A DNA stretch of 55,719 nucleotides from Deltaproteobacteria bacterium. GTDB lineage: Bacteria > Myxococcota_A > UBA796 > GCA-2862545. The position numbers were made by a program, and so were the translations under genes. The notes under the pieces were generated by a model. That model worked only from the letters and a program-made list of their open reading frames with translations. It did not search any database and was not told where the DNA came from. Within the stretch, counting starts at the first letter, position 1, and every line of letters begins with the position of its first letter. This document shows positions 43,524 to 55,467 of this stretch, in pieces. The stretch spans positions 1 through 55,719 of the forward strand of contig SBGP01000027.1 of the NCBI GenBank assembly GCA_006226595.1, written 5' to 3'.

Positions 43524-43562
43524 TCCTGTTTGGATCGCCCTCTGGAAAAGCGCGGCCGTAAA

Positions 43563-43664
43563 TTTTTCGACCCCCGCAAAGCCGGTGTTCAAGCGGATCT
43601 CCGGACCGATGTCATGCGAGTGTCGAAAAAGATTGTTGAAGCCTTGGGGGTGGATTGCCATACT
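43563..43664 (+). promoter_or_regulatory. Flp pilin promoter with flanking inverted repeat
   Basis: TTGAAG (43636-43641) and CATACT (43659-43664) are exactly 17 bases apart, the best sigma-70 pair in the window. Upstream an inverted repeat, TTTTTCGAC at 43563-43571 and GTCGAAAAA at 43622-43630, surrounds a relatively A+T-rich stretch and ends five bases before the -35. It could be a looping operator or a binding site for an architectural protein. The leader would be about 53 bases long and contain TGGAG at a good distance from ATG 43724. Confidence 0.55.
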
Positions 43665-43723: not shown

Positions 43724-43882
43724 ATGCTTTCCAAGTTCGTCCGTGACGAGAACGGCGCCACCGCCATCGAGTACGGCCTCATCGCCGCCCTTATCGCCGT
43801 CGTCATCATCGCCGCGGTCACCATCCTCGGCCAGAAGCTCAACAGCACCTTCCAGTCGATCGGCAACTCCCTGCCGGCGTAG
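43724..43882 (+). CDS. flp: Flp/Fap-type pilin
   Basis: A 52-residue Flp pilin subunit. A short leader with N10-G11 is followed by ATAIEYGLIAALIAVVII: the prepilin peptidase (not in the window) would cut after Gly11, leaving Glu at position 5 of the mature pilin, the normal Flp signature. After the hydrophobic helix the 18-residue tail (LGQKLNSTFQSIGNSLPA) is short. A TGGAG site and a strong promoter precede it; a hairpin and a terminator follow, so the pilin is expected to be made in excess over the assembly machinery. Confidence 0.92.
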   Translation: MLSKFVRDENGATAIEYGLIAALIAVVIIAAVTILGQKLNSTFQSIGNSLPA

Positions 43883-43909: not shown

Positions 43910-43942
43910 AAAGCCATCGTCCCGACGGGGACGGTGGCTTTT
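43910..43942 (+). terminator. Pilin terminator
   Basis: A 14-bp stem (43910-43923 with 43928-43941, one G-U pair, loop GACG) ends in four T residues. Its position between flp and cpaB suggests partial termination that sets the pilin-to-machinery ratio, unless cpaB has its own promoter. Confidence 0.85.
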
Positions 43943-44251
43943 CTCGTTGTTGACAGGTGATCTCGGGAGGCACGCCACCCGAGTTCGATTTTCGATCAGG
44001 ACGATCGCAGGTGCGGTCGGCCGCATCCAGACAATGCAGTCAGGGCGGCCACACCGCAGTCTCGGCTCGCGAAATCCCGCTTGCCTCCGTGGCATCCGCG
44101 ACGGCCAGCGCCCCCTGGACCCGCTCGTCAGCCTGGCACATGCCGTCGAAGAGACGCAGTTTGCGGGCCTCCCCGGTTTTATTGCGTCGCCGAATGGGGT
44201 AGAAACTACCGGCCGGCTTACTAGGCCTGCGCCCGGGGAATGGAGGACGAG
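43943..44251 (+). other. Long gap between flp and cpaB
   Basis: No convincing gene is seen here. A TTGACA at 43950-43955 has no -10 at a suitable distance. CTCGGG and CCCGAG form an imperfect inverted repeat near 43962-43983. GTTTTATTGCG near 44175 and TAGAAACTACC near 44199 are relatively A+T-rich and could belong to a cpaB promoter, but I cannot define it. The cpaB ribosome binding site is GGAGGACGAG just before ATG 44252. Small open frames on both strands look like chance. Confidence 0.35.
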
Positions 44252-45145
44252 ATGGCTCGCCAGAACACAGGCGGTCGCGGACGCGCGGTCGCATTCATGG
44301 GAGTCGCGCTGTTGATGGCGTCCGGCGCCGCATATGGACTCTACGCACTCGTACAGGACTACGAGCGCCAGCTGTCCGAAGCCCGCCAGCGCGAGCAGAA
44401 CGTGCCGGTCGTGATCGCGGCACAGGACCTCTCGCAGGGTGGCGACATCACCAAGGACGACGTCACGATCTTCGAGGTGCCGCCGCACTACGTGCCGACG
44501 ACCACGTACAGCCGTGCCGAAGACGTCTACGATCGCGTGCCAAAGGAGCGTATCCTCAAGCACGAGTTCATTCGTGAGGAGCGCCTCGCGAACGCCGAGG
44601 AAGGCACCGGCCTGAACGCGATCATTCCGCGTGGCATGCGCGCCCTGCCGGTGAACATCACCAACGGTTCCGCGGTGTCCGGCTTCGTGAACCCGGGCAA
44701 CTACGTCGACGTGCTCGTCTCCGTCCGCAAGGGCGTCACGGGCAGCGAGTACGCGACGATCACCCTGCTCCAGGCCGTCCAGGTGCTCGCCGTGGACAAC
44801 AAGCTCGGAGAGGGCGAGTCGGTGTCGACGATCGGCAAGCAGCGTCCGTCCGTGACGCTCGCGCTCACGCCGGAAGACGCGTTGAAGATGACGCACTCGG
44901 TGCGCGACGCCTCGGTCACCCTGACGCTCCGCAACGACATCGACGTCACCCAGGTCGAGACCAACGGCGCCACGCCTTCCGACCTGATCGGCAAGGCCGA
45001 CACGCGTAAGAAGGTGGTTCGCAGCACCGGCGGTACCTCCACGGGCCCGGCGACGACCACTGACACGCTGAAGATCATCCGCGGTTCGCGGACCGAGGAG
45101 AAGGATCCGAACTCCTACGGTACGCGCGCCCGCCGCCGGCGGTAA
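44252..45145 (+). CDS. cpaB: CpaB/RcpC Flp pilus assembly protein
   Basis: A 297-residue inner-membrane-anchored periplasmic protein of the Tad system. An N-terminal helix (~residues 12-36, VAFMGVALLMASGAAYGLYA) is followed by a SAF domain (VPVVIAAQDLSQGGDI, then LKHEFIREERL) and the RcpC core (GMRALPVNITNGSAVSGFVNPGNYVDVLVS). CpaB is thought to link secretin to the inner-membrane complex. The C terminus is basic, ending RARRRR. The ATG at 44252 is chosen because GGAGGACGAG lies directly before it; ATG 44240 sits inside that site. Confidence 0.9.
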   Translation: MARQNTGGRGRAVAFMGVALLMASGAAYGLYALVQDYERQLSEARQREQNVPVVIAAQDLSQGGDITKDDVTIFEVPPHYVPTTTYSRAEDVYDRVPKERILKHEFIREERLANAEEGTGLNAIIPRGMRALPVNITNGSAVSGFVNPGNYVDVLVSVRKGVTGSEYATITLLQAVQVLAVDNKLGEGESVSTIGKQRPSVTLALTPEDALKMTHSVRDASVTLTLRNDIDVTQVETNGATPSDLIGKADTRKKVVRSTGGTSTGPATTTDTLKIIRGSRTEEKDPNSYGTRARRRR

Positions 45146-45184
45146 GCTGCGCCCACCCTGTTTCACCCCCCCTGTCAGAGGCTG

Positions 45185-46558
45185 ATGCCCATGATCCGGA
45201 AAACCCTCCACAGGATGCTCGCACTTGTCGCGGCGCTCCTCGTCTTCAGCACCGCCCACGCCCAGGAGGCGCGGACGGACTGGCTCGACATCGAGCTTGG
45301 CAAGAGCCTCGTGCTCGAGACGCCGGCGAACGCCAAGGCGATCGCGATCACCGATCCCACCGTGGCGGACATCCAGACTCTCGGCTCGGGCAACAAGCTC
45401 CAGGTGCAGGGCAAGCAGGTCGGCTCCACCGACCTCATCGTGCAGCTGACCACGGGCGCGCCGATCATCTACGAGATCACCGTGCATCAGGACCTCACCG
45501 ACCTCATCCGTCGCGTCGACGGCCTGGTCGAGGGTGAGCCGCCGCAGGTCTACCCCCTGCAGGACCGCATCGTCGTCCAGGGCGTCGTCGACGACCTCGA
45601 CACCCTCGAGGCCATCGCCGGCGTCGCCCGCATCTACGACGACAACTTCGTCAACCTGATGACCGTCGAGGGCGATCACCAGGTGCAGCTCGAGGTCATC
45701 TTCGCCGAGGTCAGCCGCAGCGCGACCCGCTCCCTGGGCCTGCAGGCTCTCTGGGGCAACAGCGAGATGGGCTTCCAGATGGCCAGCCCCGCGCTGAACA
45801 GCAACACGGGCGTCCAGCACCCGAGCGTGACCGCGATCGCGCAGGGCTTCGTCGGCAACTCGAGCTCCGGCCTGTTCAACTTCATGGGCTACATCGCGGA
45901 CCTCGACCTCGCGGCCACGCTGTCCATCCTCTCCGACTACCGGATGGGCAAGGTGCTCGCGCAGCCGACCCTCGTCGCCCTCTCCGGTCAGCAGGCCGAG
46001 TTCCTCGCCGGTGGTGAGATTCCGCTCCCGAACCCGAGTGGTCAGGGCCAGATCACCATCCAGTTCAAGGAGTACGGCGTCAAGCTGGTCTTCGTGCCCA
46101 CCGTGCTCGGCGGAAACGTGATCGACCTGCGCGTGTACGTCGAGGTCAGCGAGCCGGACTTCGGCAACGCCGCTCGACTCGTTGGTATCGAAGTTCCGGG
46201 CTTTGCCTCCCGCAAGGCGGCGAGCCACCTGCGCCTCGACTCCGGCATGACCTTCGCGATGGCCGGCATGCTCAACGAGCGTACCAACTACAGCCGCGCT
46301 GAAGTCCCCGGTCTCGGTCGCATCCCGATTCTCGGCACCCTGTTCCGGTTCACCACGCACGAGCGTGACGAGACCGAGCTGGTGATCTTCGTGACGCCGC
46401 GCCTGGTCCGTCCCCTCGGTCCCGGCGAGGTCCCGGCCGCGCCCGGCACCACCGAGAACAACAACCCCAGCGACATCGAGCTCTTCCTGCTCGGCCTCGA
46501 CCACCGTCCCGGCAGCCGCACGGCCGAGCCGTCCGGCGACGTCGGCCTCGTGCGCTAG
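45185..46558 (+). CDS. cpaC: CpaC/RcpA outer-membrane secretin
   Basis: A 457-residue secretin with a signal peptide (LLVFSTAHA). Residues ~35-100 are the N-terminal secretin-and-TonB-like domain (GKSLVLETP, then ITDPTVADIQ). A BON-like segment follows (RRVDGLVEGEPPQ, then DRIVVQGVVDD). The secretin beta-barrel core starts near 170 (VQLEVIFAEVSRS) and includes VLAQPTLVALSGQQAEFLAGGEIP and VPGLGRIPILGTLFR, the diagnostic secretin signature. It forms the outer-membrane pore for the pilus. ATG 45185 is followed by a second ATG at 45191, which could also serve. Confidence 0.92.
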   Translation: MPMIRKTLHRMLALVAALLVFSTAHAQEARTDWLDIELGKSLVLETPANAKAIAITDPTVADIQTLGSGNKLQVQGKQVGSTDLIVQLTTGAPIIYEITVHQDLTDLIRRVDGLVEGEPPQVYPLQDRIVVQGVVDDLDTLEAIAGVARIYDDNFVNLMTVEGDHQVQLEVIFAEVSRSATRSLGLQALWGNSEMGFQMASPALNSNTGVQHPSVTAIAQGFVGNSSSGLFNFMGYIADLDLAATLSILSDYRMGKVLAQPTLVALSGQQAEFLAGGEIPLPNPSGQGQITIQFKEYGVKLVFVPTVLGGNVIDLRVYVEVSEPDFGNAARLVGIEVPGFASRKAASHLRLDSGMTFAMAGMLNERTNYSRAEVPGLGRIPILGTLFRFTTHERDETELVIFVTPRLVRPLGPGEVPAAPGTTENNNPSDIELFLLGLDHRPGSRTAEPSGDVGLVR

Positions 46559-46567
46559 GAGACGCCT

Positions 46568-47755
46568 GTGCGTTCAGTGGACAACGTTCGTGGAGCAGCC
46601 CGAGTCCTGCTCGTAGGACTCGACAACGACGCCGTCGGCATGGTCCGTGAGGTCCTTGCCGCCGAGGCGGTCCTTCCCCAGGGCAGCCTGCCCTTTGGGG
46701 ATGCCCTCATCGAGGCTCGACACTCCCAGCCCGATGCCGCCATCGTCTCGCTCGGTGAGGCGATGGATGCGGCTCTGGACTTCGGGGCGCAGCTGTCTCG
46801 TGAGTTCCCGAACATGACGCTGGTCGCCATGGCCCGTCAGTCCGACGCGCAGGCCATCCTGGCTGCGATGCGTGTCGGCTACAAGGAGTTCGTCACCCTT
46901 CCCGACGATGCCCAGCGCCTCCGGGATGCGGTGCACGCCTCCGCTCTCTCGGCCAGCTCCGGTGAGAAGGGGCTGGTCATCGCCACCGTGGGTTCCAAGG
47001 GTGGCGTGGGTACCACGACCGTGGGCACCCACCTCGCGGCGGAGCTCGCCGCAATTCACCGAGTCGTGCTCCTCGACCTGGACTTCTCCATGGGCGACGC
47101 GGCCTCGGTACTCGATGTGACCGTCAAGGACTCCATCGTCGATGTCCTGACGCGCGCTGATCGCCTCGACGAGCGAAGCCTCACCGCTTCCGTCGCGACC
47201 CACCGAAGCAAGGTGCAGGTCCTGGCTCAGCCCAACGGCGTCGACAGCCTCACCGAGGCCGATGCGGACGACGTGTTCAACCTGATCAATGCCTGTGCGC
47301 AGGCCTATCAGTACGTCATCCTCGACATCGGAAGCCAGGTGAGTGCCGCGACCGGTCTCGCCCTTCAGGTCGCCGACATCATTCTCCTCGTCACCACCCC
47401 CGACGTCATCGCCGTGCGCGATGCGTTCCGACGCCTCAAGCTTCTTCAGGCGCTCGGGGTGGAGAACGACCGCATCCGTCTGCTGGTCAACCGGCACCGT
47501 CCGAAGACCTTCGTCAGCCTCGAGGACATCCAGACGAACCTCGGCCTCCGAGTGTCCGCCACCATCGCTGACGATCCGAAGACGGCAGAGCAGGCGACCA
47601 ACGAAGGCAAGCTGATCCGCGAGGTCAACCGCCGCAGCGACACGGCGCGCAACATTGCAGGGCTCGTGGCCCTGCTCACCGAAGAAGAGGACGCCGAGGT
47701 CTCGGGCGATCCTCCATCCAAGAGCGGCCTGTTCGGCTGGTTCGGAAGGGGATGA
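46568..47755 (+). CDS. cpaE: CpaE-like localisation ATPase
   Basis: A 395-residue protein combining a pseudo-receiver N terminus (residues 12-110, lacking the phosphoacceptor Asp of true receivers) and a ParA/MinD-type ATPase. The ATPase has the deviant Walker A GSKGGVGTTT, a Walker-B-like DLDFSMGD and the later LLVTTPD. CpaE is believed to position the Tad machinery at the cell pole. The GTG start has AGGAG 7 bases away. A glycine- and serine-rich tail ends at FGWFGRG. Confidence 0.88.
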   Translation: MRSVDNVRGAARVLLVGLDNDAVGMVREVLAAEAVLPQGSLPFGDALIEARHSQPDAAIVSLGEAMDAALDFGAQLSREFPNMTLVAMARQSDAQAILAAMRVGYKEFVTLPDDAQRLRDAVHASALSASSGEKGLVIATVGSKGGVGTTTVGTHLAAELAAIHRVVLLDLDFSMGDAASVLDVTVKDSIVDVLTRADRLDERSLTASVATHRSKVQVLAQPNGVDSLTEADADDVFNLINACAQAYQYVILDIGSQVSAATGLALQVADIILLVTTPDVIAVRDAFRRLKLLQALGVENDRIRLLVNRHRPKTFVSLEDIQTNLGLRVSATIADDPKTAEQATNEGKLIREVNRRSDTARNIAGLVALLTEEEDAEVSGDPPSKSGLFGWFGRG

Positions 47756-47759
47756 GTAG

Positions 47760-49106
47760 ATGGGTGGCACTCGACTGATCGATCGCGTTCGTGGCGCGCA
47801 GTCCAAGTTCCGCGGCGGCGGCGGCTTCGCGGACTCCGAAGAGTTCGAGCAGGTCAAGAAGGAGCTGCACACCGAGGTCATCGAGTCCCTCGACTTCGAG
47901 CAGGTCAACACGACCGACCGCGATGAGCTCTCCGGCAAGCTGCGCAAGACGCTCATCGAGCGCGTCGAAACGCGGCAGCTGCCGCTCAACCGCATGGAGC
48001 GGGAGCGCCTGGTCGAGGAGATCCTCGACAACATCCTCGGCCTCGGCCCTCTCGAACCCCTCCTCCGTGACCCCGAGGTCTCGGACATCATGGTCAACGG
48101 TCCGAAGACCGTGTTCGTCGAGCGGAAGGGCAAGCTGGTCAAGACCAGTGTCACCTTCACCGACAACAAGCACCTGATGCAGATCATCGAACGCATCGTC
48201 GCGGCCGTCGGTCGTCGCGTCGATGAGACGACCCCGATGGTCGACGCCCGCATGGCGGACGGGTCGCGCTTCAACGCGATCATCCAGCCGCTGGCTCTCG
48301 ATGGCGCCGCCGTCTCTATCCGTCGGTTCGGTACGGTCCCGATTCACGCCGAGGACCTGATCGCACTGGGCTCCTGCCCTCGCCCGATCATGGAGGTTCT
48401 CCGCGGAGCCGTCCGCTGCAAGCTGAACTGCATCATCAGCGGCGGTACCGGTTCCGGGAAGACCACACTGCTCAACGTGCTCTCGTCCTTCATCCCGGAA
48501 GGCGAGCGGATCATCACCATCGAGGACTCCGCGGAGCTCCAGCTGCAGCAGACCCACGTCGTGCGCCTCGAGACCCGCCCCGCCAACCTCGAAGGCAAGG
48601 GCGAGGTCAACCAGCGCGACCTGGTGAAGAACTGTCTGCGAATGCGGCCCGACCGCATCATCCTCGGCGAGATCCGCGGCGGTGAGGCCATCGACATGCT
48701 CACCGCCATGAACACGGGCCACGATGGCTCGCTCGCCACGGTGCACGCCAACAACTCGCGCGACGCGCTCTCCCGCTTCGAGACCATGGTCGGTATCGGT
48801 ATGCCGAACATGGGCGACAAGGCGATCAAGGAGACGATTGCTCGCGCACTCGACGTCATCATCCAGCAGAGCCGCCTCCCGGACGGCACGCGTCGCATCC
48901 TCTCGCTCACCGAGGTGACGGGCATGGAGGGTCCGGTCATCACGACCCAGGACATCTTCGTGTTCGAGCGACGCACCATCGACGAGCACGGCCGCGTGCG
49001 CGGAGCCTTCAAGGCCACCGGCATCCGACCGAAGTTCGCGACCAAGTTGGCCTCGAACGGCATTCGCCTGTCGAGCGAGCTGTTCCGGTTCGAGATGGAG
49101 GTCTAG
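47760..49106 (+). CDS. cpaF: CpaF/TadA secretion ATPase
   Basis: A 448-residue type II/IV secretion ATPase that drives pilus extension and retraction. The N-terminal domain (to ~190) has EEILDNILGLGPLEPLL and DIMVNGPK; the catalytic domain has Walker A GGTGSGKTT, the Asp box ITIEDSAELQL, the Walker B LRMRPDRIILGEIRGGEA and the His box GHDGSLATVHANN, all intact. Four bases separate its start from the cpaE stop. Confidence 0.95.
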   Translation: MGGTRLIDRVRGAQSKFRGGGGFADSEEFEQVKKELHTEVIESLDFEQVNTTDRDELSGKLRKTLIERVETRQLPLNRMERERLVEEILDNILGLGPLEPLLRDPEVSDIMVNGPKTVFVERKGKLVKTSVTFTDNKHLMQIIERIVAAVGRRVDETTPMVDARMADGSRFNAIIQPLALDGAAVSIRRFGTVPIHAEDLIALGSCPRPIMEVLRGAVRCKLNCIISGGTGSGKTTLLNVLSSFIPEGERIITIEDSAELQLQQTHVVRLETRPANLEGKGEVNQRDLVKNCLRMRPDRIILGEIRGGEAIDMLTAMNTGHDGSLATVHANNSRDALSRFETMVGIGMPNMGDKAIKETIARALDVIIQQSRLPDGTRRILSLTEVTGMEGPVITTQDIFVFERRTIDEHGRVRGAFKATGIRPKFATKLASNGIRLSSELFRFEMEV

Positions 49107-50057
49107 TTGCCCCCCTCACTTACCATCTTCATCATCGCGGTGATCTTTACCGCGATGCTGGGCATGTCCCAGGGCATGTACTGGGCCTACGTCGCCCGGC
49201 GCGAACGCGAGCAGCGCGAGCTCGCCCGCCGTCTCGGCAGCATGGGCGAGGGCGTCGAAGGCACCTCCCTGTTCAAGGAGCAGGCGAAGGACGCCGTCGC
49301 GAACGCCCTCGGTAGCCTGGGTGCGCACCTTCAGGACAGCCTGCGCAAGGCTGACCTCCAGTACGGCGTTGCCCAGCTGGTCGCCCAGTGCGTGATTCTC
49401 GGACTCATCGTCGCCGTCGGCGCGATCTATTTCCTGGGTCTCCCGGGAATGATGCTTGCGCCCATCGCAGCGATCGTCCCCTACGGCCTGGTTCGCAAGG
49501 CGGGCAATGACCGGACGCGCCTGCTCGTGGAGCAGCTCCCCGATACCCTCGACCTGATGGCCCGCTCGCTGCAGGCCGGTCTCGGCCTCTCCGACGCCCT
49601 GCGGCTGGTCGCCGAGGAGATGCCTCTCCCGGTCGCCGCCGAGTTCGGCCGCGTGTTCGAGGAGGTCCGCTTCGGTCGCGACTACCGTGAAGCTCTCGAG
49701 AAGCTCCTCAACCGTAACCCTGGCATCTTCGACCTCCAGCTCCTGGTGTCGTCCATCCTCCTGCAGCGTGAGACCGGCGGTAACCTCATCGAGATCCTCG
49801 ACAACATCGCCGAGACCATCCGCGCCCGCTTCCTGTTCCAGGCGAAGGTGGCAGCCCTGACCTCCGAGGCGCGTTTCTCCGCCCTCGTGCTCGGCTCCCT
49901 TCCCCTTGGCGTTGCCACGATGATCTCGATCACGCAGCCGACCTACCTGCTGCCGTTGGTCGAAGATCCGATGGGCAACCTCTTGCTCGGTTTCGCGTGC
50001 TGCATGTACACCTTCGGCGTGTTCATGATGAACCGCGTGTCGCAGGTGGAGGTCTGA
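49107..50057 (+). CDS. tadB: TadB inner-membrane platform protein
   Basis: A 316-residue polytopic protein, type II secretion F/TadB family, which forms the platform under CpaF. Hydrophobic segments lie at ~6-28, ~95-135, ~262-282 and ~290-310. The T2SF domain has DTLDLMARSLQAGLGLSDALRLV and the LLVSSILLQRETGGNL motif. It starts at TTG, with GGAGG seven bases upstream, immediately after the cpaF stop. The TGATG junction overlaps the tadC start by one base. Confidence 0.9.
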   Translation: MPPSLTIFIIAVIFTAMLGMSQGMYWAYVARREREQRELARRLGSMGEGVEGTSLFKEQAKDAVANALGSLGAHLQDSLRKADLQYGVAQLVAQCVILGLIVAVGAIYFLGLPGMMLAPIAAIVPYGLVRKAGNDRTRLLVEQLPDTLDLMARSLQAGLGLSDALRLVAEEMPLPVAAEFGRVFEEVRFGRDYREALEKLLNRNPGIFDLQLLVSSILLQRETGGNLIEILDNIAETIRARFLFQAKVAALTSEARFSALVLGSLPLGVATMISITQPTYLLPLVEDPMGNLLLGFACCMYTFGVFMMNRVSQVEV

Positions 50058-50950
50058 TGGAGACCCTTCTCGTCCTTCTCGGTATCGGCGTCATCGGCTT
50101 CGGCGTGTTCTCCGCCTACAGCTTCATGAACCCCTCTCGTACCGCCTCGGACCGCCTCGCGGAGTTCACGGGCGTCCGCGACGAAGACCTCAACGACGAC
50201 CCGGCACTCAAGCAACTCGCCGAGCGACTCGCCACCATGGCGGCCCAGTCCGGCGAGGACGCGGACTTCCTCCGCCGCAGCCTGGTTCACGCGGGCTACC
50301 GCGGCAAGCATGCGGCGGAGCTGTTCACTTCCGTGCGCGTCATGCTCGCCCTGACGCTGCCCGTGCTCGCCAGCGGCTTCCTCATCAACCAGAGCCCGCT
50401 TCGCATGGGAGGTGGCGTGCTCTTCGCCGCCGCCCTCGGCTACATCTTCCCGCAGAGCTGGCTCACGGGGCAGGTGGAAGCGCGCCAGAAGAAGCTGCTC
50501 CGTCCTTTCCCGGACGCGCTCGACCTCATGGTCGTCAGCGTCGAGGCCGGCCTCGGCCTGGATGCGGCCTTCCGCCGCGTCGCCGACGAGCTCGAGTTTG
50601 CGGCCCCTGAGCTCGCCGCCGAGTTCCGCCTCGTGAACAACGAGACCGGCGCCGGCGTGCCGCGCGTCGAGGCGCTCCGCCACCTCTACGACCGCACCGG
50701 CCTCGACACGATCAAGTCGCTGGTCAACATGCTCGTCCAGGCCGAGCGCTTCGGTACCTCCGTCGCCCGTTCGCTGCGCGTGCACGCGAACATCACCCGT
50801 GAGAAGCGCATGGCGCGCGCCGAGGAAGAGGCCGCGAAGGTGTCGCCGAAGCTCACCGTCGTCATGATCCTCTTCCTCATGCCGTGCCTGTTCATCGTCA
50901 TCATGGGTCCCGCCGCGGTCAACATTCGCCGGAACTTCCTGAAGAATTGA
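50057..50950 (+). CDS. tadC: TadC inner-membrane platform protein
   Basis: A 297-residue second platform protein, paralogue of TadB. It has an N-terminal helix, two central helices (~95-135) and a C-terminal helix (~265-288), and the T2SF core FPDALDLMVVSVEAGLGLDAAF followed by SLVNMLVQAERFGTSVARSL. GGAGG lies upstream of ATG 50057 within tadB. The next gene overlaps its stop through TTGA. Confidence 0.9.
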   Translation: METLLVLLGIGVIGFGVFSAYSFMNPSRTASDRLAEFTGVRDEDLNDDPALKQLAERLATMAAQSGEDADFLRRSLVHAGYRGKHAAELFTSVRVMLALTLPVLASGFLINQSPLRMGGGVLFAAALGYIFPQSWLTGQVEARQKKLLRPFPDALDLMVVSVEAGLGLDAAFRRVADELEFAAPELAAEFRLVNNETGAGVPRVEALRHLYDRTGLDTIKSLVNMLVQAERFGTSVARSLRVHANITREKRMARAEEEAAKVSPKLTVVMILFLMPCLFIVIMGPAAVNIRRNFLKN

Positions 50951-51696
50951 GATCGGCTCTGCTACTGCTGGTGCTTGCCGCCTGCGCCCCGAAGCGCCCT
51001 GCCCTCGCCGAAGACGAGACGTGGCGTGACTTCGAGAGCAAGCTCGAGGTGCGTCTCGACGTGATTGAGACGCTCCTGGATCAGGGGGCCGTGCGCAAGG
51101 CCGAGACGATCATCGCCCAGATGCGCTCCGAGGGAGAGGACACGCCCGAGCTGGACTACCTCCAGGGACGTGCCTTGTACCTGCAAGGTATGAGCGCCGA
51201 GGCCGAGCAGCTCCTGAGCCGCGCCACTACGGCGATGAAGCGCGATGCGCGTCCGCACGAGGTCCTCGGCCTCTTGTACGCGGACGCCCAGCGTTCGGAC
51301 GAGGCCGTCACCGAGCTCCAGACCGCGGTCAAGCTCGACGAGAACAACGCGAAGACCTGGAACAACCTCGGCTTTGTGCTCACCTCCACCCAGCGCTTCG
51401 ACGAGGCCGTCGAGGCCCTGCGCGAGGCAGTGCGCCTCGATGGGACCATCGCCCGCTACCGGAACAACCTGGGCTTCGCCCTGCACGCGAGCGGCCACCC
51501 GGCGGACGCGATGCAGGTGTTCAAGAGCACTGGAACCCTCGCGGATGCCCATACGAACATGGCTGTCGCCTGGGAGCTCGCTGGTTCGCTCGACGAGGCC
51601 CGCGCCCAATACGCCGCTGCGCTAGAATCCAACCCCGAACACACCCCCGCCAAGGAGGGCCTCGCTCGACTCGAGGCCCACGAGGAGTCCCCATGA
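50947..51696 (+). CDS. tadD: TadD-like TPR lipoprotein
   Basis: A 249-residue outer-membrane-type lipoprotein starting at TTG, which overlaps the tadC stop (TTGA). The lipobox is LAAC. Six or so TPR units run from ~45 to 240 (for example AKTWNNLGFVLTSTQRFDEAVEAL and ARYRNNLGFALHASGHPADAMQ). TadD proteins are outer-membrane assembly factors, often for the secretin, which fits the position here. No ATG or GTG start keeps the signal peptide intact, so TTG is favoured. Confidence 0.82.
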   Translation: MRSALLLLVLAACAPKRPALAEDETWRDFESKLEVRLDVIETLLDQGAVRKAETIIAQMRSEGEDTPELDYLQGRALYLQGMSAEAEQLLSRATTAMKRDARPHEVLGLLYADAQRSDEAVTELQTAVKLDENNAKTWNNLGFVLTSTQRFDEAVEALREAVRLDGTIARYRNNLGFALHASGHPADAMQVFKSTGTLADAHTNMAVAWELAGSLDEARAQYAAALESNPEHTPAKEGLARLEAHEESP

Positions 51697-51938
51697 CCCG
51701 CATCATCCTGATGGCCCTTGCTGGCGCCGGCCTCGCAGCCTGCGCCTCGCCCCGCCACCTTGGCTACGACTTCGGCCGTGCCTTCACGGAAGCGGCGATG
51801 CTCCAGACCGACCTCACCCGTCCCTCCGTGGCCGCTGGCGGTCACCCGCTGAACGGCAACGAGGCCGAGGCCATCCGTATGCAGGTGAGCCGCGAGGCGA
51901 GCGATCAGGAGTCGGGCCGGGCGCAGCTCGCCAACTAG
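51693..51938 (+). CDS. Small lipoprotein of the Tad operon
   Basis: An 81-residue lipoprotein (lipobox LAAC) with a small soluble part, GYDFGRAFTEAAMLQTDLTRP, then a Glu/Ala-rich helix. The family is not recognised. ATGA overlap with tadD and GAGGAG upstream place it in the Tad operon, perhaps as a pilotin-like partner of the secretin (inference). Confidence 0.7.
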   Translation: MTRIILMALAGAGLAACASPRHLGYDFGRAFTEAAMLQTDLTRPSVAAGGHPLNGNEAEAIRMQVSREASDQESGRAQLAN

Positions 51939-51959: not shown

Positions 51960-53279
51960 ATGCGACGTTCCCCGTCCGCCCCGCTGCTCCTGGGCGTGAT
52001 CTCAGGGTTGATTGCAGCGGTGGCGATCCTGCCTACGGCGGTCCCCCTCGGCTGGCAGATATCCGCCGCCGAGCGTGACTTCACCGTGCAGACCTCGGAG
52101 CGCGCGCTGTCCGCCGGAGAGCGCATGCTCCTTCGGGACGGGCGCCTTCCCGCCAATCCCACGGCGTTCGGTGCGGATGGCCTGCTGCTCATCGGCGATG
52201 CGAGCGAGCAGGTTGGCCACGTACCGATCGGGCTCGAGGGTCTGAGCCTCGACTGCACCGGCTGGGCGCAGATCCACGAGCTGCAGGGAAGCGAGTGGGC
52301 CGTTGCGTGCCACGAGCTGTCTGGGGACCGCCGCCTGTACTCCATCGTGCAGCACCGCTCGGAGCTCGCCTCGAATCTCGCCCTGCTCATCGGCGCGCTG
52401 TCGCTGATCGTCGGCATCATCACCGCCCTCGGCGTCCTCCGCATCCTGCGTCCCCTCTCCCACATCGCACTCGCTCTCGAGCGCGTTCGCATGGGTGAGC
52501 ACGGCGTCCGCGTGCAGCGAGCCGGCATGGCCGAGCTCGACGACCTCATCGAGGAGCTCAACGCCGCAGCATCGGCCATGGAGGAGCGCGAGGACGCGAT
52601 TCGCGGCCGCATTGCAGTCGTTCATGAGCTCGCGCGCATCGTCGCCCACGAGGTCCGCAACCCGCTGCAGTCGCTCGAGCTGCTCACGAGCCTGATCGCC
52701 GCGGAGCCGAACATCGAGGAACGACGCGAGCTGATGCACGCGATCCAGACCGAGATCCGCAACCTCGATGGCGTCGTCACGCGGCTGCTCCGCGAGGGCA
52801 TCGACCAGTCCGGGTTCCGCCTGAGCCGCTCCACGCGCGAGGTCCACCCCATCCTCGAGCAGGTGATCACCCTTCGCCGGCCCGAGGCCCACCGTCGGGG
52901 GGTGCTCATCGAGGGAGAGCTTCAGCGGGGTGTCGTCGCCAGCGTGGACACGGCGCTGTTTGCGCGCTCGATGGAGAACCTCGTCTCCAACGCGCTCCAG
53001 GCCGTGCCCGACGGCAAGGGCAAGATCGTCGTGAAGCTGGCCCGGGACGAGGACAGCTTCGTCGTTCGCGTCGACGACAACGGTCCCGGCGTGTCACCCG
53101 AGCTCTCCCCCACGGTGTTCGACCCCCACGTGACAGGGCGAAAGGACGGCCACGGGCTAGGATTGTCCATGGTCCGAGAGGTCCTCCGTGCCCATGGCGG
53201 TACGGTGCATCACGAACGCTCCCCGATGGGCGGCGCCGCGTTCATCGCCCGCATCCCCCTCGAAGAGGAAAGCCCTTGA
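51960..53279 (+). CDS. Membrane histidine kinase of the Tad locus
   Basis: A 439-residue sensor kinase. Two transmembrane segments (~10-34 and ~140-160) enclose a ~105-residue periplasmic sensor. A HAMP linker follows (ILRPLSHIALALERVRMGEHG), then a coiled region and HisKA with the phosphoacceptor His in VAHEVRNPLQSLEL. The catalytic domain has NLVSNALQAV (N), DDNGPGVSPELS (G1) and GHGLGLSMV (G2). The Asn-Pro-Leu of the H box is typical of NtrB-like kinases, matching the NtrC-like partner whose start overlaps its stop (TTGA). It likely tunes Tad expression, although the signal is unknown. Confidence 0.9.
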   Translation: MRRSPSAPLLLGVISGLIAAVAILPTAVPLGWQISAAERDFTVQTSERALSAGERMLLRDGRLPANPTAFGADGLLLIGDASEQVGHVPIGLEGLSLDCTGWAQIHELQGSEWAVACHELSGDRRLYSIVQHRSELASNLALLIGALSLIVGIITALGVLRILRPLSHIALALERVRMGEHGVRVQRAGMAELDDLIEELNAAASAMEEREDAIRGRIAVVHELARIVAHEVRNPLQSLELLTSLIAAEPNIEERRELMHAIQTEIRNLDGVVTRLLREGIDQSGFRLSRSTREVHPILEQVITLRRPEAHRRGVLIEGELQRGVVASVDTALFARSMENLVSNALQAVPDGKGKIVVKLARDEDSFVVRVDDNGPGVSPELSPTVFDPHVTGRKDGHGLGLSMVREVLRAHGGTVHHERSPMGGAAFIARIPLEEESP

Positions 53280-54472
53280 CCGCGCTCAACATCCTCATTG
53301 TCGACGACAACCGCTCCGCCGCGGACGCCCTCGCGCGCCTCCTCGCCCTGGGCGGCGACCAGGTGGCCGCGGCCTACGACGGCAACACCGCGATCGAGCG
53401 TATTCGCACGGACCCGCCGGACCTGGTGCTTACCGACCTCCGCATGGAGCCCGTCGACGGCATGGAGGTCCTGCGTGCCGCTCGGGCCATGGAACCACCC
53501 GTCGAGGTGATCGTGTTCACCGCGTTCGGCGCGGTCGAGGTCGCTGTCGAGGCCATGCAGCTCGGAGCGCGCGACTTCCTCACCAAGCCCGTCACCGCCG
53601 AGCAGATCGTCGAGCGACTCGCGCCGCTTCGCGCCGACGGAGCGACCCACCCCACGGACGATCCAGAGTTCATCGCGAACGCAGACTCCAGCCTTCGCCT
53701 CGTCGATACCCTGGGGCGCGCCGCGGGTGTCCCCTCCTCCGTGTGGCTCGAGGGCGAGCTCGGCAGCGGACGTGGCTTCGCTGCGCGCTACCTGCATCGC
53801 GTCGACCGCGCGGACGCTCCATTCTCGGAGATCAACCCGGCGCGGCCCTTCACCTGGCCCGAGACCGGCACCGCGGTGCTTCCGAACGTCGACCAGCTGT
53901 CGATGTCCGCCCAGGCGCAGCTCGCGCGCGATCTCGCCACCGTGCCCGAGAACCTTCGGGTGATCGCGACCTCCGGCCCCGATCCGCGACGTCTCATCGC
54001 CGAGGGGCGCCTGGATGCCGAGCTGTTCTACGCGCTGTCGGTGATCCTCATCGAGGTCCCGCCTCTGCGCAACCGCTCGGAGGACGTGCTGCCCATGCTC
54101 GACGCGGCGCTCGACCGCTTCGCCGCGCGCTACCGTCGCCCCCGCCCCAAACTCACGGGCGAGCAGCGCAAGGCGCTCTCTGCGCACGGATGGCCCGGCA
54201 ACGTCCGCGAGCTGCGAAACCTCGCCGAACGCGCGGTGGTCATGGGTGCGGATGCGCTCCACATCGACGTCCAGGCCCCCAAGACAGCGGGTCTGCCCCA
54301 GCTCGAGCCCGGGTTCTCGCTGGCCAACTACCTCGAGTCGGTCGAGAAGCGCCTGCTCATCGAGGCCCTGCGCCGGGCCGGCGGCGATCGCGCGCAAGCG
54401 GGCAAGCTCCTCGGCGTCGAGCGCAACACGCTGCGCTACAAGCTCAACAAGTACGGGCTCCTGGAGAAGTAG
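53276..54472 (+). CDS. NtrC-like response regulator with degenerate AAA+ domain
   Basis: A 398-residue regulator: receiver (D10/D11, phosphoacceptor D54, T82, K104), central AAA+ domain and C-terminal Fis-type helix-turn-helix (~355-396). The AAA+ domain keeps the overall order but is damaged. Walker A reads GELGSGRG (residues 160-167) instead of GESGTGKE, the segment that should carry the GAFTGA sigma-54 contact loop is deleted (~25-30 residues between EINPAR and TGTAVLP), and Walker B lacks its acidic pair (VLPNVDQL). Sigma-54 activation by the normal route is therefore unlikely; it may act as a DNA-binding regulator through Fis. The start is TTG, overlapping the kinase stop, with AGAGGAAAG upstream. 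Confidence 0.85.
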   Translation: MTALNILIVDDNRSAADALARLLALGGDQVAAAYDGNTAIERIRTDPPDLVLTDLRMEPVDGMEVLRAARAMEPPVEVIVFTAFGAVEVAVEAMQLGARDFLTKPVTAEQIVERLAPLRADGATHPTDDPEFIANADSSLRLVDTLGRAAGVPSSVWLEGELGSGRGFAARYLHRVDRADAPFSEINPARPFTWPETGTAVLPNVDQLSMSAQAQLARDLATVPENLRVIATSGPDPRRLIAEGRLDAELFYALSVILIEVPPLRNRSEDVLPMLDAALDRFAARYRRPRPKLTGEQRKALSAHGWPGNVRELRNLAERAVVMGADALHIDVQAPKTAGLPQLEPGFSLANYLESVEKRLLIEALRRAGGDRAQAGKLLGVERNTLRYKLNKYGLLEK

Positions 54473-55467
54473 TGACCGCCGCTGTGCTCGCGCTCGCGCT
54501 CCTGCTGAGTGCGCCCGCGCAGGCCCACCCCAACGCGCTGCGCATCGTGGCGCATGCCAGCGAGCTGCACGTCACGGTCTCCGAGGCGCGGCTGCGCTAC
54601 GCCGTCTCCCTGCCTCCGCACGGTGGGCACCACGACACGCCGTCCACCGATGGGCAGTCCCTCGAACAGACGCAGAGCGGCCTGACGCTCACCGGTGCTG
54701 AGGCACTCACGTGGTCGCTGACCGAGGGCCCGCGGACCACCGGAGCCGGAGCCCAGGAGATCGGACTGGTCGGCGCCGCTCCCCGCGTCGCGGACGACCT
54801 GGTGCTCGAGGACGCCAACTACCCGGACCTACCGGGCACCTTCCAGGGGCGGGTCACGGTGGGGCCCGGACTCGAGGTCGTCGCCTGCTCCCTGTTCACC
54901 GAGCGCGACGGGGAAGTCCGGGCCTCTCGCGCAGGCCGCTGGCAGCTCGGGGACGGGCATCGCCGGCTCACCGTCACCGTTCGCGAACGCGACGGGCTGG
55001 TGGAGCGTACGCTCGACCTCCTCGCCCCACCCCCCGAGGTCCGGACCGCCTGGCAGTCGCGCCCCGCGCAGGGCGTCGAGCGTCTGTGGCGCTTGACCCC
55101 GCTCTCCTGGGTTCTGGCCCTCTTGCTCGCGTCCGCGACGGCTCCTCTCGCTGTGCACGAGCGAAAGCGCGACCTCGGGGCCATGGCCGCGTCAGGGCTC
55201 GCTGCCATCGCGCTCTCGGTCCTTCCCGGTCCCTGGTCTTGGGCGGTTCCCGCGGTCACCACCCTGGCACTGCTGAGCCCGCGCACGCGACCCGCGTTGC
55301 TCGCGCTACTCCCGCTCGCGGCCCTCGGAGCGCCCGGTCCCGTCGCGGTTGGCGCGTGTGTGGCGCTCGCCGTCGCCGGACTCGCGGGCACGCGGAGTCG
55401 CCCCCTCCGCTGGCCCGTGGTCCTGTTCGGCCTCGTCGCGCTCGCCCGCGGAATCGCGACCCTCTGA
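54472..55467 (+). CDS. Secreted/membrane protein of unknown function
   Basis: A 331-residue protein with a signal peptide (VLALALLLSAPAQA). Residues ~20-205 are extracytoplasmic, with short His-rich parts (PPHGGHHDTP) and no known fold. Five or so hydrophobic helices fill the C-terminal ~120 residues. The GTG start overlaps the regulator stop by one base (TAGTG), so it is probably co-transcribed with the Tad regulators. No function is assigned. Confidence 0.7.
   Translation: MTAAVLALALLLSAPAQAHPNALRIVAHASELHVTVSEARLRYAVSLPPHGGHHDTPSTDGQSLEQTQSGLTLTGAEALTWSLTEGPRTTGAGAQEIGLVGAAPRVADDLVLEDANYPDLPGTFQGRVTVGPGLEVVACSLFTERDGEVRASRAGRWQLGDGHRRLTVTVRERDGLVERTLDLLAPPPEVRTAWQSRPAQGVERLWRLTPLSWVLALLLASATAPLAVHERKRDLGAMAASGLAAIALSVLPGPWSWAVPAVTTLALLSPRTRPALLALLPLAALGAPGPVAVGACVALAVAGLAGTRSRPLRWPVVLFGLVALARGIATL

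Follow-up and report, generated by a model that had tools for sequence, protein, structure and literature searches.

The window analyzed here (the whole stretch of DNA, 55,719 nucleotides) carries a Tad pilus locus in which a kinase gene and an NtrC-shaped regulator gene stand downstream of the pilus genes:

43724..43882, + strand: flp, encoding the Flp major pilin (52 aa, Flp_Fap)
44240..51938, + strand: Tad operon (cpaB/rcpC, secretin, tadZ-like ATPase, tadA, tadB, tadC, TPR protein, 81-aa ORF)
51960..53279, + strand: membrane histidine kinase (HisKA and HATPase_c), overlapping the regulator gene by 4 bases and syntenic in relatives
53276..54472, + strand: NtrC-shaped response regulator (receiver, degenerate AAA+, Fis-type HTH), 398 aa from a TTG start, assigned from Pfam and orthologs
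54472..55467, + strand: membrane protein gene, overlapping the regulator stop codon

The regulator reading frame is uninterrupted, and its start overlaps the kinase stop. An earlier note on this DNA had placed the gene at the end of the Tad operon, in overlap with its kinase. The overlap stands, but one more gene follows the regulator, the membrane protein gene that begins at 54472. This membrane protein matched no Pfam family, and its gene has a partial match in the sister species. A strong hairpin with a T-run lies 3' of flp (window 43910-43942), so transcription of flp may mostly be separate from that of the remaining operon.

The order cpaB, secretin, tadZ, tadA, tadB, tadC, TPR protein, small ORF, kinase, regulator was kept in every relative with a long enough contig; the small ORF was unmatched in L159 and L031, which otherwise showed the same gene order. 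Other genomes of the order have the same Tad operon through the small ORF, without the kinase and the regulator, and their loci formed a natural comparison set for promoters. A search of the sister families for a full-length, GAFTGA-bearing ancestor at the corresponding position found none; their Tad operons end before the kinase.

Four Pfam domains matched the regulator, each above its cut-off: Response_reg (residues 6-115), Sigma54_activ_2 (PF14532, 134-264), AAA_lid_14 (265-325) and HTH_8 (353-393). Its features are the following:

53291..53620, + strand: receiver domain (Pfam), with D10, D11, D54, T82 and K104
53675..54067, + strand: degenerate AAA+ core (PF14532, Pfam), model fold retained with pLDDT above 90
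53753..53773, + strand: former Walker A, GELGSGR, K replaced by R166
53843..53848, + strand: deletion point 1, after residue 190, with 27 aa including the L1 loop and GAFTGA missing
53867..53893, + strand: former Walker B, GTAVLPNVD, D-E replaced by P203-N204 (ortholog alignment)
53936..53941, + strand: deletion point 2, after residue 221, with 11 aa of the pre-sensor I (L2) loop missing
54191..54214, + strand: WPGNVREL (sensor II block)
54332..54454, + strand: Fis-type HTH (HTH_8, Pfam)

We counted residue conservation over 29 non-redundant orthologs; the ortholog-bearing genomes number 30 and belong to one order. The phospho-acceptor set D10/D11/D54/T82/K104, a phosphorylatable receiver set (DD, D, T, K) as expected of a response regulator, is present in 29/29 orthologs. 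R166 is likewise invariant (29/29), and the Walker B Asp-Glu has mostly become Pro-Asn, with N204 in 23/29. Compared with 35 canonical relatives, the regulator family carries two clean deletions, of which the 27-aa one is found in all orthologs and the 11-aa one had been overlooked in the earlier note. The orthologs have TSG/TAQ in place of the sensor I Asn, one R-finger position is mostly non-Arg within the window's family, and WPGN.RE is invariant. The earlier note had described a protein that retains its receiver and Fis domains and the WPGNVREL block and has lost GAFTGA, the P-loop Lys and the Walker B acids, and its description proved accurate on each of these points. The observation of an NtrC-shaped regulator with a GAFTGA-less, Lys-less and Asp-Glu-less AAA+ core is confirmed.

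Regulator orthologs are 43-74% identical and ~395-410 aa long. Of the other 20 genomes in the family, 19 have one, as do members of three further families of the order, and a 282-genome sample of the phylum showed them in that order only. The earlier note had proposed looking for the same deletion in relatives; the orthologs of all 30 genomes are shortened alike, with equal length and the same gaps. Because orthologs in these other genomes share length and gaps, a frameshift or assembly error is excluded. The coding sequence gave a dN/dS of ~0.14 for the whole regulator and ~0.19 for the AAA core, rough values from two species of the genus with dS near saturation. By this rough measure, the whole regulator including the AAA core is under purifying selection. 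A degenerating pseudogene or an artefact, a reading that could appeal to the loss of the most conserved AAA+ motifs, is hardly credible and is refuted by the gaps shared in 30 genomes and by the low overall dN/dS.

In a broad scan for relatives outside the phylum, the best 80 loci included three members of the regulator family; nearly all of the rest encode proteins of 27-35% identity that carry GAFTGA or a close variant of it. Three alphaproteobacterial contigs (L084, L105, L099) encode NtrC-like proteins without a recognisable GAFTGA in which the Walker A Lys is present. In both species of genus g4 (L128, L129), the recognition helix in the HTH of the regulator is altered (NIDQKLIRSGL versus TLRYKLNKYGL), and the operator has perhaps changed there.

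An AlphaFold model of the regulator (mean pLDDT 91.6) showed a full AAA+ core fold. It matched NtrX over the whole chain (Z 23) and the FlrC, NtrC1, LuxO and FleQ domains at ~2.2-2.5 A, with the FlrC domain superposing at 2.3 A. Judging from sequence and model, the AAA+ domain looks catalytically dead yet structurally retained. The L1 and L2 loops contact sigma54 and DNA in working enhancer-binding proteins (PspF/NtrC1). Because the Walker A Lys, the Walker B Asp-Glu, sensor I, GAFTGA and L2 are all lost, neither ATP hydrolysis nor sigma54 contact is expected of the regulator. Set against the hallmarks of a bEBP, the AAA+ fold with lid and the Fis-type HTH are present, whereas the GAFTGA loop, the Walker A Lys and Walker B Asp-Glu, and a -24/-12 promoter at linked targets are absent.

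No -24/-12 box was found at flp or cpaB in the window. The earlier note had held that sigma54-dependent activation would speak against its reading; on the promoter side, the boxes at regulator-bearing flp promoters were no better than shuffled sequence (mean score 7.2/11 versus 7.4). Across the regulator-bearing genomes no sigma54 box rose above chance at flp or cpaB, except one near cpaB of G016 that is absent from its sister. These promoters, the G016 case excepted, argue against a regulator that still works in the sigma54 pathway, by joining a canonical enhancer-binding protein in mixed oligomers or by inhibiting it. Such a role could draw on the ~24 strongly matching sigma54 activator domains encoded in the same genome and on the retained AAA+ fold and sensor II, but the regulator has lost the L1/L2 loops and an R-finger position that a mixed ring would need, and we regard it as very improbable. 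Two flp promoters of regulator-less genomes carry near-perfect sigma54 boxes (L220:953-968, TGGCACGGGACTTGCT, 11/11; L222:1409-1424, TGGCACCAATTGTGCA, 10/11), suggesting sigma54-driven Tad pilins in some members of the order.

The flp promoter of the window instead carries GAAAATTTTC-type dyads, one of which abuts a sigma70-like -35/-10 pair:

43558..43568, + strand: upstream dyad GTAAATTTTTC, candidate operator (motif search and window scan)
43625..43638, + strand: promoter-proximal dyad GAAAAAGATTGTTG, candidate operator, overlapping the -35
43636..43664, + strand: sigma70-like flp promoter TTGAAG-17-CATACT, with the same spacing and -10 in the sister species

These dyads and their promoter placement are new in the analysis of this regulator. 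An expectation-maximisation search of flp promoters from regulator-bearing genomes of the family returned the palindromic motif aAAAAATTTTTt, which scored 294 versus 239 (sd 9) for 12 shuffled sets; at larger widths, non-palindromic models mostly drifted into GC-rich background. Across the 55.7-kb window, the only sites of at least 8 bits were those at 43558 and 43625, both at flp. The composite dyad-TTGNNN-17-CATANN recurred in five promoters, two of them at flp (one in each species) and three at tadG, of which two share a contig and the third is from the sister species. The -35 elements at dyad promoters were mostly weak (TTGCGG, TTGATT, TTGCTC) and the spacers 17 bp long. Among 24 neutrally detected cores, the left flank was G in 21 and the right flank C in 21 (p=1e-7), so the dyad element is more than an A-tract. 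Another regulator-bearing family has flp genes that are not linked to cpaB; three of the flp promoters there carry GAAAATTTTTCG-TTGACT or a close match.

The dyad was also scored against regulator presence. No core of the neutrally detected kind was present in 14 flp promoters from regulator-less genomes, and none of 16 flp promoters of regulator-less relatives had a strong dyad (best score 12.8 bits), the strong-dyad threshold being post hoc and several site scores depending on a motif for which the window's own family was the training set. Outside that training family, 4/8 regulator-bearing flp promoters scored 13.3-17.8 bits; three of these four belong to one genus, and regulator presence and dyad presence are confounded with phylogeny. 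G028 and G211 have the regulator and no strong dyad at flp. Strong flp dyads were also seen in the f4 genomes G306 and G305 (L310, L313; 21.4 and 14.1 bits), and our model predicts the regulator in both.

Could the dyads be UP elements, or the sites of another, possibly Tad-linked, protein, with the regulator acting elsewhere? AT-rich elements upstream of a -35 do resemble UP elements, the target of the Fis-like HTH is a prediction, and some regulator-bearing genomes have no recognisable dyad. However, the conserved G and C flanks (21/24 each), the second sites at about -60 to -110 and the 0/16 regulator-less flp promoters with a strong site all argue against this reading, and the window's Tad operon encodes no DNA-binding regulator besides the NtrC-shaped one. 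We rank a different dyad binder as the second rival and consider it rather improbable.

We searched for the dyad elsewhere in the genome. Such dyads are very rare: GKAAATTTTYC has four sites in 7.2 Mb, one at flp and the other three preceding tadE, tadG and a gene for a trypsin-like protease. In the sister species, a slightly different pattern, GRAAAWTTTYC, also has four sites; they precede flp, tadE, the gene of that protease and that of a C10 peptidase, and each of these four genes has a counterpart in the genome studied here. When tadG and tadE promoters were scanned directly, dyads stood at all independent tadG promoters but that of C95 and at the tadE operon promoter, in this genome (three tadG promoters) and for the same classes in the sister species; the tadE copies on C103/C161 and C53/C128 had none. 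The C10 peptidase (L270, L275) and the trypsin-like protease (L242, L273) have the Tad dyad upstream in both species and are possibly Tad-linked secreted proteins or processing enzymes. Two dyad-like elements also lie upstream of a sigma-70 family factor gene (G008, L265 around 1509), a possible regulatory cascade. As a proxy for the regulator, the genome-wide dyad count was weak: it separated regulator-bearing from regulator-less genomes poorly, and some of the latter have several dyads.

In Myxococcus xanthus, dispersed TadE/F/G "tip" clusters serve one Tad pilus, and the text of that study mentions no response regulator or NtrC (PMC12075869). The dispersed tadE/tadG loci found here look similar to the exchangeable tips of the M. 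xanthus Kil pilus (PMC12075869), a lead at this stage. Tip clusters are believed to determine the binding target of a Tad pilus, and the scattered regulon is reminiscent of them.

Taken together, these results fit the proposal of the earlier note that a sigma54 activator has been converted into a different kind of regulator. It is supported by the loss of both loops and of the catalytic residues from a protein that keeps its fold, receiver and HTH, and also by purifying selection, the missing -24/-12 box and a dyad abutting a sigma70-like promoter across the Tad regulon. From these sequence features, we think it probable that a sigma54 activator was stripped down and now regulates the sigma70 promoters of a dispersed Tad regulon, gated by phosphorylation and independent of ATP. 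The regulator would be a conserved, Tad-dedicated two-component member with a sigma54 enhancer-binding protein as its ancestor. As the intact catalytic residues suggest, the membrane kinase would phosphorylate D54 of the receiver, and the AAA+ fold would serve only as a scaffold for oligomerisation and interdomain contact. A dimer of the Fis-type HTH is predicted to bind the G-A(3-5)-T(3-5)-C dyads, of which one abuts the -35 of sigma70-like promoters, centred at ~-40, and the second lies further upstream, by 20-23 bp at tadG/tadE and ~69 bp at flp. Dyad-bound regulator would then most likely activate sigma70 RNA polymerase in class II fashion, with a putative regulon of flp, the minor-pilin clusters of unlinked tadE/tadG genes and a small number of secreted proteases.

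Dyad binding by this protein and the direction of its control are both predictions. The main rival is a repressor acting on the same operators and sigma70 promoters, blocking the -35 through two cooperative or looped dyads, with phosphorylation relieving or enforcing the block. It would account for the proximal dyad overlapping the -35 TTG and for the two spaced sites at each promoter. However, the weak -35 elements with 17-bp spacers are as at activator-dependent promoters, and a dyad centre near -40 is the usual position of a class II activator. We judge repression unlikely, while still a serious contender. The full activator proposal, in which a phosphorylation-gated class II sigma70 activator coordinates flp, the unlinked TadE/TadG clusters and the secreted proteases with the dead AAA+ domain as a cooperative DNA-binding scaffold, has in our view an even chance of being correct. 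It supplies a candidate operator and a predicted, testable regulon for Tad pili with genome-scattered genes. The finding also corrects a predictable misannotation, as GAFTGA-less relatives are often annotated as sigma54 activators.

GAFTGA-less, sigma70-acting NtrC relatives are already known, and so are Tad-linked kinase-regulator pairs. Loss of GAFTGA has been reported repeatedly among bEBP relatives, including HupR (R. capsulatus), TyrR and DhaR (E. coli), which have lost the interaction with sigma54 (PMC3162934). GAFTGA loss with a switch to sigma70 is described for R. capsulatus NtrC, Caulobacter NtrC, VpsR, HupR, TyrR and DhaR (PMC10274813, PMC3162934). The Tad regulator shares an NtrC-like, GAFTGA-less chain with the sigma70-acting R. 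capsulatus NtrC, HupR and VpsR; its own action on sigma70 is a prediction from promoter architecture. TyrR and DhaR have no receiver domain, and HupR, TyrR and DhaR have inputs and targets other than those of the Tad regulator.

Rhodobacter capsulatus NtrC is a GAFTGA-less response regulator activating sigma70 promoters, according to a passage in PMC10274813 that cites Bowman and Kranz 1998. The Tad regulator is likewise NtrC-type and GAFTGA-less. However, R. capsulatus NtrC reportedly needs ATP binding, whereas the Tad regulator lacks the Walker A Lys, the Walker B acids and L2; unlike its counterpart, it also sits in a pilus operon. Caulobacter NtrC is GAFTGA-less too and acts on sigma70-type promoters, but only 8 L1 residues are deleted, against 27 aa here, and its Walker A K178 and Walker B D235, both lost from the Tad regulator, are present and required (PMC10274813). 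Vibrio cholerae VpsR is a GAFTGA-less receiver-AAA+-HTH protein that is sigma70-dependent and needs no ATP (PMC10274813). It was among the structural matches of the Tad regulator, with a weaker whole-chain match than NtrX/NtrC1. VpsR responds to c-di-GMP as effector for exopolysaccharide and has no Tad-operon kinase pair, whereas the Tad regulator is kinase-paired.

Pseudomonas PprB is NarL-type, and the PprAB regulator, unlike the Tad regulator here, does not derive from an AAA+ activator. Pectobacterium ECA0785/0786 and Pseudomonas PprAB are kinase-regulator pairs controlling flp/tad genes, and the Tad-linked regulator of Pectobacterium is OmpR-type, not AAA+-derived as here (PMC3767616). 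By its sequence, the Tad family goes further than R. capsulatus and Caulobacter NtrC, as it lacks the two loops together with the ATPase site. It would be a natural, cleanly fixed example of an ATP-driven sigma54 activator turned into a conventional regulator that keeps phosphorylation, fold and DNA binding.
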